A program made the translations under genes and the position numbers. A DNA stretch of 48,474 bases, taken from positions 1 to 48,474 of the forward strand of contig NZ_JNZA01000046.1 of NCBI RefSeq assembly GCF_000717345.1. Direction: 5' to 3'. Every line of letters begins with the position of its first letter. The stretch's first letter is position 1. Below, one piece after another: positions 7,215 to 15,213 of the stretch. The notes beneath the pieces were generated by a model. The model searched no databases, was not told where the DNA came from, and saw nothing but the letters and a program-made list of their open reading frames with translations. Source of the stretch: Streptomyces lydicus. Lineage in GTDB: Bacteria; Actinomycetota; Actinomycetes; Streptomycetales; Streptomycetaceae.

Positions 7215-10200
7215 TTACGTGGCGGTCAGCTCCAGCCCCAGCAGGCCCGCGACGCCCTCGGCGAGCGCCGCGAGCGTCGGGTGCTGCCAGACGAAGTCCC
7301 GGGCGAGGGTGACGCCGGCGGAACGCTCGACGCGCCCGCGCAGCTCCATGGCCAGCAGGGAGTCGAATCCCAGTGATTTCAGCGGGGTCTGCGGATCGAG
7401 GGGGCCGTCGCCCAGCCTGAGCACGGCGCGGACGTGGCCCGCGAGGAAGTCCTCCAGGGCGGCCCGGCGCGCCAGTCCGGCGGGCAGCGCGACGAGCCGG
7501 GCGCGCAGGTCCTCGGTGTCGTCGGGGCCGGCCGGCCGGTCCGCCGGCCGTTCGCCGGAGGCCGCGACCGCGCTGAAGAACGGCAGGTGCCGGCCCGCGG
7601 AGGGCAGCCAGGTCTCCGGCGGACCGGGCAGCACACCGGTCTGCACCCGCCGTCGGGCGAGCAGGCTGTGCAGCGCGGCCATGCCCTGGTCGGTGGGGAT
7701 GGTGCGGTAGCCGCGCCGCCCGAAGTCCGTCGCGACGCCGATCTCGCCCCAGGGGCCCCAGTTGACCGCGAGGGTGGGCAGGCCCTGCCCCGAGCGCCAG
7801 GCCGCGAAGCCGTCGAGCCAGGAGTTCGCCGCGGCGTAGGCGCCCTGGCCGGGGTTGCCCAGCAGCGAGGCCATCGAGGAGAACGCCGCGAACCAGTCCA
7901 GCGGATGGCCCGCGGTGGCCTGGTGCAGATGCCAGGCGCCGACGGCCTTCGGCAGCCAGACCTTCGCCAGCTGCTCGTCGGAGACGTTGGTGAGCACCGC
8001 GTCGTCGAGGACCATCGCGCAGTGCACGATGCCGCGCAGCCGCGATCCGTCGGCGGCCGCGGTGGCCACCAGCCGTTCCGCGGTGCCGGGTTCGGCGATG
8101 TCGCCGAGGACCACCGAGACCTTGGTGGTGTCGTCGCCGAGCCCGGCGATCAGCCGGGCGGCCTCCGGGGACGGCGCGGAGCGGCCGTTGAGGACGAGGT
8201 GGCCGGCGCCGTGCTCCGCGAGCCACTGCGCGGTGGCCAGGCCCAGGCCGCGCAGGCCGCCGGTGACGACGTAGGCGCCGCCCTCCTGCACGGGCAGGTC
8301 CATCTCGGGCAGCACCGCGCGCGCCTCGCCGCCGTTGGGCACGGTCAGGACGAGCTTGCCGACGTGGTCGGCGGCGGCCATCGTGCGGAACGCGGTGGCG
8401 GCTTCCCCGAGCGGATACTCGGTGCAGTGCAGGGGCTTCAGCCGCTCCTCCTCGAACTCGTCCAGCACCTCCTGCCAGACGGCGGTGAACACGCCGGGGC
8501 GGTGGCGCCGCAGCTCGATCAGGTCGACGGTGCGCAGGGTGACGTTGTGCCGCAGCGGCAGCATGCCCAGCGGGGCGTCGGAGAGGATGTCGCGCACCCC
8601 GAGCTCCACGAACCGGCCGAAGGGGCGCAGCGTCTCCAGACCGGTGCGGATGGCCGCCCCGGACAGCGAGTTGAGCACCACGTCGACGCCTTCGCCGGTG
8701 ACCTCGCGGATGCGCTCGCCGAAGTCCAGCGACCGGGAGTCCATGACGTGGCGGATGCCCATGCCCCGCAGGTAGCGGCGCTTGTCCTCGCTGCCGGCCG
8801 TCGCCAGCACCTCGGCGCCCAGCGACCGGGCCACCGCGATCGCCGCCAGCCCGGTGCCGCCGGTGGCCGAGTGGATCAGCACCCGTTCCCCGGCGGTGAG
8901 GCGTGCCACGTGGCGCAGCGCGTACCAGGCCGTGACGAAGGCGACCGGCAGTCCGGCCGCGGCGACGGGGTCGACGCCGAACGGGACCGGCGCCACCGTC
9001 TCGGCCGGCACGGTCAGGAACGACCCGAAGGCGCCGCCCCGCAGATCGACGGCGATCACCTCGTCGCCGACCTGGAGCCGGTCCACGCCTGCGCCCACCG
9101 CGCTGACGACACCGGAGCATTCGAAGCCGATCCGGTAGCGGACGTCCTCGTCGCCGGGGAGCAGGCCCATGGCGGTCAGCACGTCCCGGAAGTTCAGGCC
9201 GGCGGCGGTGACCCGCACCTCGACCTCGCCCGCCCGGGGCGGCCGCCGCCCGGTGACCGCGTACTCCAGGCTCGACAGGTCGCCCAGCCGGCCGGCGCGC
9301 AACCGGAAGCCGTCCACGCCGTGCCGCACGGTGCAGGGCGTGGCGGCCCGGCTCTCGGGGGCCGCCTGCGGGGCGGGCCGCAGCCGGGCCACCCAGCGGC
9401 CGCCGGCGCGCAGCGCGACCTCGTCGTCGTCCGCGTCGGCCAGCAGCTCCAGCGCCACTTCCGTCGGGTCGGCGTGCCGGGGATCGGCGTCGATCAGCGC
9501 CGGGCGCAGCTCGGGGTGTTCCAGCGCGGCGACCCGCACCAGCCCGCGCAGGGCGCTCTGGCCCACGTCGACGGTGTCGCCCGGCTCGACGTTGCGGGCT
9601 CCCCGGGTGACGACGCACAGCCGCGGCGCGGCCGTGGTGCCGGTGACGGCCTGCACGGCGCCGAGCAGCCGGCGGGTGCGCCGCAGGGACTGCTCGGCCG
9701 GCTCCCCGCCGCCCGGGCTCCCGCACACCAGCACCACGCCGCGCGGCGGTTCGAGGCCGGCGGCGAGCCGCTCGGTGAGGGTGTCGCGGAAGGTGTCGAG
9801 ACCGGTGTCGTCCAGCGGCAGGTCCCAGACGCTCGTACGGGCGCAGCGGGTGCGCAGCGCGGCGGCCAGCACCCGGGCGGCGCCGTCCGCCTCGCCCACG
9901 AGCAGCCAGCTCCCCGGTGTGCCGCCGCCGTCCGGGGTGGGCCGGGCCGCCCGCTGCCAGCCGATCTCCAGCAGCCAGTCGTCGGCGGCCGGGGTGTCGC
10001 GCACCGCCCGTCGTACGAAGCGGATGCCGTGGGCGGCGAGGACCACCGTGCCGCCTTCGTCCAGGAGGCGGACGTTCGCCACGACGGCGTCCCGCGCGTT
10101 CTCGCTGATGTGCGCGTGGCCGTACGCGGCGGTCGCGGGGTCGCCGAGGACCCGTACCGCCTGCATACCGACCGGCAGCACCAGGGCCTGGTCGTCCTCG

Positions 10201-15006: not shown

Positions 15007-15213
15007 CTACTCGGCGATGGTTGTGCGGTAATGCCAGCGATAGACGGGGACCTGCTCTCCGTCCAACTCGGCGTATTCGCCGTAGAATTCGAAGCGCTCG
15101 TAGCCATTGCCACGCACGAGCCTTACCGGGTCCCGGACATCCTCGCGCGAGTTCTCCGGCAGGGCCTTTCCACCGGGCTCGTCGACGAGAATCACGATGT
15201 TTCTTCGCGCCAT
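15007..15213 (-). CDS. DUF5988-like small protein, 68 aa
   Basis: Starts MARRNIVILVDEPGG and has a C-terminal half with RLVRGNGYERFEFYGEY and VYRWHYRTTIAE, which matches my recollection of DUF5988, a small Streptomyces family often found beside polyketide or other biosynthetic genes. Function is unknown; no membrane segment, metal site or carrier-protein serine motif is visible. The ATG at 15211-15213 follows GGAGAG, and a longer in-frame start is unnecessary. It is the first gene of the operon DUF5988 - ketosynthase - PKS, which suggests a supporting role in that pathway. Confidence 0.75.
   Translation of the reverse strand: MARRNIVILVDEPGGKALPENSREDVRDPVRLVRGNGYERFEFYGEYAELDGEQVPVYRWHYRTTIAE

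Follow-up and report, generated by a model that had tools for sequence, protein, structure and literature searches.

What could a stand-alone ketosynthase (KS) that has lost two of its catalytic positions be doing next to a complete one-module type I polyketide synthase (PKS)? The question is raised by a locus in a 48,474-nt stretch of Streptomyces lydicus DNA (the window, that is, the whole stretch analysed), which is contig C46 of an 8.18 Mb genome in 131 contigs. Three minus-strand genes, read from 15213 to 7215, code for a 68-aa DUF5988 protein (15007..15213), a 444-aa stand-alone KS with a GTG start (13594..14928; PF00109 at 57.8 bits, PF02801 at 41.3 bits) and a 2,113-aa reducing PKS (7215..13556). 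A sequence-only reading of this DNA had placed three co-directional genes at exactly these positions, and all three are there. The gaps are short (78 bp between DUF5988 and KS, 37 bp between KS and PKS), a purine-rich stretch precedes each gene start, and GC3 favours both long frames. In a close genome (G137) the gene set is found ∼0.65 Mb from the start of a contig of 8.2 Mb; the nearest named relative of the KS, at 97% identity, is from Streptomyces lydicus.

Considering the relatives of the KS, we saw that the PKS, which resembles the mycobacterial mycocerosic acid synthase (MAS; see below), accompanies it with great regularity. A MAS-like PKS follows 66 of the 68 unique KS copies at ≥53% identity; one exception is L028, where the contig ends after the KS, the other is L095 (52 to 53%), which belongs with a distant group. 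Below 53% identity none of 14 copies is followed by such a PKS. The two genes were neighbours on one strand in all 63 loci measured (a few being duplicates), and in a scan of species genomes the PKS followed the KS in 39 of 40 loci, L028 being the fortieth. Adjacency at this level (63/63 and 66/68) means that the pairing is not due to chance. KS and PKS distances are correlated as well (Mantel r 0.785 over 50 loci, with none of 2000 permutations as high); this correlation follows equally from shared descent.

The DUF5988 gene behaves differently. The window protein is a clear member of its family (PF19450, 63.3 bits; cut-off 27); tblastn with this copy as query found it in 29 of the 40 cassette loci, 27 times upstream and twice downstream of the PKS. 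Among 150 genomes of the genus there were 75 PF19450 places in 66 genomes, 9 of them no more than 300 bp from a cassette KS; DUF5988 stood beside the KS in 9 of the 12 cassette genomes of this set. Other copies were located near, for example, an aldehyde dehydrogenase or, in the window's genome, a malate dehydrogenase. A fold search with the predicted DUF5988 model (all-beta, pLDDT 77) gave no clear match. Thus, of the three-gene set put forward from sequence the KS–PKS pair recurs but DUF5988 is not constant; the real unit is two genes, KS and PKS, with DUF5988 as an optional companion.

How widely is the unit distributed? A scan of 295 genomes of the genus, in which five first-look candidates per genome were scored, gave a KS match at 1e-60 in 34 genomes and at ≥67% identity in 24. 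In view of the latter count, and of the monomodular iterative PKSs already published from Streptomyces, the description of this arrangement as unusual for the genus is unsupported or at least too strong. Elsewhere in the class (window's excluded) the KS was matched in 5 of 296 genomes: four of family f18, one of these with two copies, and one of family f19. All five f18 copies adjoin a PKS; the f19 copy adjoins a second KS instead. Named records with the KS come from Streptomyces, Streptantibioticus and Asanoa, also from Kitasatospora, Streptacidiphilus and Actinocorallia.

The unit is found in plasmids too. With the KS as tblastn query, 22 plasmid records matched at ≥60% identity (the next listed match was at 27%); the KS domain of the PKS was present at ≥60% in 18 plasmid records. 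In all six plasmid regions that we opened (L043 to L048) KS and PKS were together, with DUF5988 annotated in five and detected by tblastn in the sixth. The surroundings contained IPT/TIG-domain proteins (6/6), replication genes (5/6) and transposases or integrases (3/6); the TIG protein at locus L003 was confirmed by Pfam. Presence of the cassette in plasmid records indicates that the unit travels. In the window, a tyrosine recombinase gene (PF00589; 16000-17112, plus strand) lies near DUF5988; homologues of it occur in 7 of 41 loci, counting the window, and it is perhaps a trace of integration.

Several other neighbours were recorded. Downstream of the PKS, the window has an anti-sigma-like HATPase gene (6352-6879, minus strand) with homologues in 19 of 41 loci (the window being one), on a side that varies; HATPase genes of this type are common in Streptomyces, so the link to the cassette may be loose. 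An NsdA-family regulator (4764-6203, plus strand), scoring over its subfamily cut-off, has homologues in 11 of 41 loci, again including the window. Nine cassette loci (L023, L025, L026, L027, L029, L030, L032, L033 and L036) carry a divergent upstream set consisting of an AsnC-type regulator, a DDAH-like protein, a class III aminotransferase and a chorismate-binding/GATase protein; an AMP-binding enzyme accompanies this set in six of 41 loci (Pfam was run on the L023 copies). Further away in the window, the protein encoded at 41329-44085 (minus strand) combines radical SAM domains with a C-terminal CofH region and is probably an ordinary FO synthase.

The start of the KS gene has a feature of its own. 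A 12-codon leader ORF (MMILVRDGVLS, then stop; 14925..14960, minus strand) ends in a TGA sharing bases with the KS start codon, GTG. Among relatives, an overlapping short ORF was observed at 37 of 55 KS starts versus 3 of the 55 PKS starts at these loci, the count being made over loci with at least 300 bases before the KS and hence leaving aside the window itself. To be counted, an ORF had to have 8–30 codons, an ATG start and an NTGA overlap, and every start in frame and close to the aligned one was accepted, equally for KS and PKS. The relatives' leaders were mostly 11 or 12 codons long. The overlap suggests possible translational coupling of the leader with the KS.

Turning to the PKS, Pfam domains follow in the order KS, AT, DH, ER, KR, ACP, all within one protein; no second module and no thioesterase were found by Pfam across the 2,113 residues, as the sequence-only reading had said of the thioesterase. 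That reading had also compared domain order and size with those of MAS. The best PDB sequence match is indeed MAS (9d2z; 1582 bits), which aligns along practically the whole length (residues 19-2109). Among modular entries the top score was 777 bits, for a fusion of EryA2 and Lsd14 (7s6c) with KS-AT only as its best stretch. The PKS is MAS-like by these comparisons. The NCBIfam model of Pks2 (NF041183) scored it at 1880 bits, below the cut-off of 2400, which makes it Pks2-related but not an equivalog of mycobacterial Pks2. Across 197 genomes of the class the scores of this model fell into three levels: 2683-4248 bits (over the cut-off), ∼1830-1920 bits and ≤1424 bits. Five PKSs make up the intermediate level, those of the window and of genomes G331, G428, G408 and G419. 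The stand-alone KS adjoins the PKS in the window, G331 and G428 and is absent beside the PKS in G408 and G419; one of the latter two PKSs is from the window's genus and has an internal stop.

The catalytic residues of the PKS were followed in 58 aligned rows, 52 of them unique, obtained as follows: the PKS was hit at 111 loci, 85 of which gave a piece of >1,900 residues, and 58 of these pieces were at ≥50% identity. The KS Cys/His/Lys/His, AT Ser, DH Asp, ER nucleotide (glycine) motif and KR Ser/Tyr are intact in all 58 rows. The ACP Ser is present in 57 rows, the remaining row having a gap, and the DH His in 51 of the 52 unique sequences, one being unreadable. At the three positions tested, the AT motif VASH is present in 58/58 rows, the same as in MAS; such a motif would point to a methylmalonyl-CoA extender. 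The PKS would work iteratively with methylmalonyl units, and its product would be a saturated branched chain.

The stand-alone KS presents the opposite picture at two positions. In an alignment of 193 stand-alone KS sequences (178 of cassette type by identity, mostly database proteins whose neighbours were not seen), the HGTGT position is never His and the Lys position is Glu (Glu364 in the window), both in 193/193; Cys181 and the second His, His369, are kept in 193/193. In a control set of 91 KS domains from PKSs, His was present in 89 and Lys in 91. The gene had earlier been called a single ketosynthase-like enzyme; a KS is present, but with two catalytic positions lost it is not an ordinary condensing one. 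By alignment, it lacks the ordinary signature of elongating KAS I/II enzymes (Cys-His-His plus Lys), and its residue pattern fits a KS0 or acyl-transferring KS; it probably cannot elongate by decarboxylation. Two further residues deserve mention. His331, two places ahead of the HGTGT His position in an ungapped part of the alignment, is His in 154 of the 178 cassette-type sequences and might substitute for the lost residue. Glu364 could act as a new base, which would leave condensation possible. The predicted structure has the FabF fold; the model is of middling quality, at a pLDDT of 73.5, with the five models ranging from 39 to 73.

Given a MAS-like PKS with a full set of catalytic residues and a KS that has kept Cys and one His, we tentatively favour, with confidence slightly short of even, a two-enzyme lipid factory in which the PKS builds a methyl-branched chain and the non-elongating KS moves the acyl group on or off it. 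The PKS would accept an acyl starter and then repeatedly add and fully reduce methylmalonyl units on its single ACP, producing a saturated chain with multiple methyl branches. The acyl group would be held on Cys181 of the stand-alone KS, with His369 helping, and would be shifted onto or off the PKS carrier without elongation; we infer both this transfer and its direction.

In mycobacteria, an acyl-AMP ligase loads MAS and PapA5 unloads it; a KS moving the acyl group onto or off the PKS would thus replace the fatty acyl-AMP ligase and the acyltransferase of the mycobacterial system. No fatty acyl-AMP ligase and no PapA-type acyltransferase were found among the window proteins scanned with Pfam, a set that covers part of the frames; at L139, a locus with a MAS-like PKS and no stand-alone KS, an AMP-binding ligase adjoins. 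With neither function directly beside the window pair and a ligase beside the PKS that lacks the KS, the simplest reading is that the KS took over loading or release. The relatives give a less tidy view: an oppositely oriented AMP-binding gene lies no more than 10 kb away in 6 of 41 loci, and at plasmid locus L043 an Acyl_transf_3 gene is situated ∼6 kb downstream; loading and release could come from elsewhere in the genome. Existence of MAS-like PKSs without a stand-alone KS (G408, G419) counts against the favoured explanation, as do the Pks2 score under the cut-off and the middling KS model.

One could speculate further that a FabF-fold KS has turned into a dedicated trans-acting acyltransferase for a MAS-type synthase, that the pair is a self-sufficient, plasmid-mobile two-gene unit for branched lipids in Streptomyces and its relatives and that the distant relatives represent a wider Cys-Glu-His class of KSs serving type II-like clusters as well; this broader picture is possible, though we hold it with less confidence. 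The distant relatives do occupy type II-like clusters without a MAS-like PKS, thus the family does more than serve PKSs of this type. At L090, L094, L095, L097, L099 and L200, type II-like clusters contain paired KSs without the HGTGT His and Lys and with Cys kept.

The main rival of acyl transfer is a condensation of another kind: the KS would join the completed product of the PKS to another acyl chain without decarboxylation, Glu364 serving as base, and release the product. It owes this rank to the invariance of Glu364, which equals that of Cys181; the presence of both residues in 193/193 sequences agrees with a working non-standard active site. A stand-alone KS of the myxopyronin pathway reportedly joins two chains, and relatives of the window KS occur as KS pairs with an identical signature. 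Against this, no further enzyme for building chains is common beside the pair; a FabF-like KS was found ∼8 kb from it in 3 of 40 loci (L018, L019, L022) and PKS parts were seen at L038. We consider condensation of this kind unlikely, though it ranks next after acyl transfer.

The loss of catalytic residues, as well as the paired KS-like genes of relatives in type II-like clusters, could also be explained if the KS were no catalyst at all but a structural or chain-length partner, similar to the chain length factor of type II PKSs. Chain length factors lose the active-site Cys; the Cys of the window KS never varies in 193 sequences, which makes a silent partner less likely, and in cassette loci the pair has no other KS directly at its side. 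We regard this role as improbable.

Still less probable is that the PKS works a single time, as an ordinary assembly-line module of a scattered modular pathway, which might be thought of one module that has neither a loading nor a release domain. A KS-domain phylogeny had been suggested as a check of the sequence-only reading, and here it supported MAS likeness: the PKS falls with MAS/Pks2-type synthases, outside the modular clades. We built the tree from 76 KS domains, 23 chosen cassette rows and 53 others (90 of 105 KS domains were unique). A clade with support 100/99 united the 23 cassette rows with 11 MAS/Pks2 rows, three near rows and one other row; the MAS/Pks2 label is our own and covers PKSs above the Pks2 cut-off (10 of family f4, one of f18). 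Within it, the cassette rows clustered at 99/98 with L125 (locus L202), which also has a stand-alone KS adjoining. The Streptomyces modular KS rows, taken from the window's genome and two plasmids rather than from named macrolide clusters, formed a separate clade (16 of 20 rows, 100/100), and the other four were placed elsewhere, also outside the MAS clade. Long-branch flags were raised for four rows, none from a cassette. Besides, the unit recurs on plasmids and chromosomes, and the neighbour families listed include no other PKS gene.

The last explanation, a decaying or silent remnant, finds some ground in 4 of 40 loci (L025, L027, L033, L035) where the PKS match is in several pieces, perhaps through draft errors or decay, but is very improbable given the active sites kept in 52 unique PKS and 193 KS sequences.

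The cassette matters in several respects. Work on MAS-type synthases concerns the wall lipids of mycobacteria, in which loading and unloading fall to separate ligases and acyltransferases. With a compact counterpart from soil bacteria that has a single small partner, both steps could be studied, and put to use, in Streptomyces; one would also have to ask what a synthase of branched lipids is for in these bacteria, on plasmids as well as on chromosomes. The partner KS offers a consistent, testable change of active site across 193 sequences, and the leader ORF ahead of it is a testable control element.

In the open-licence literature we found neither a description of a MAS-like PKS with such a KS nor a pathway with the same gene order, in line with the sequence-only reading, which knew of none. 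How does the pair compare with known systems? The window PKS has in common with MAS/Pks2 the domain order, length, whole-length homology, AT motif VASH and membership in one KS clade; its identity to ten full-length copies passing the Pks2 cut-off is 43-45%. Unlike the mycobacterial enzymes, it has a stand-alone KS as partner and no ligase or PapA-type acyltransferase directly beside it. The non-elongating KS0 domains of trans-AT PKSs have lost the HGTGT His and kept the active-site Cys; the window KS differs from them in being stand-alone and FabF-like, in its Lys-to-Glu replacement and in its place beside a PKS with its own AT. The AmcF-AmcG pair of cispentacin biosynthesis (PMC10698177) is another point of resemblance, as the AmcF model (NF058662) matches the KS at 97.9 bits, short of its cut-off of 325, and relatives of the KS are paired as well; AmcF, however, acts with AmcG and condenses, with no MAS-like PKS. 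Monomodular iterative type I PKSs of Streptomyces were published by Wang et al. (2020, PNAS), as cited in passages of PMC9045324 and PMC8622039; they share with the window PKS the single module and the genus, and iterative working is expected for the window PKS. Homologues of MAS with a single module are also on record from Kutzneria (in a passage of PMC4210621) and from Nocardia (in a passage of PMC4035055).
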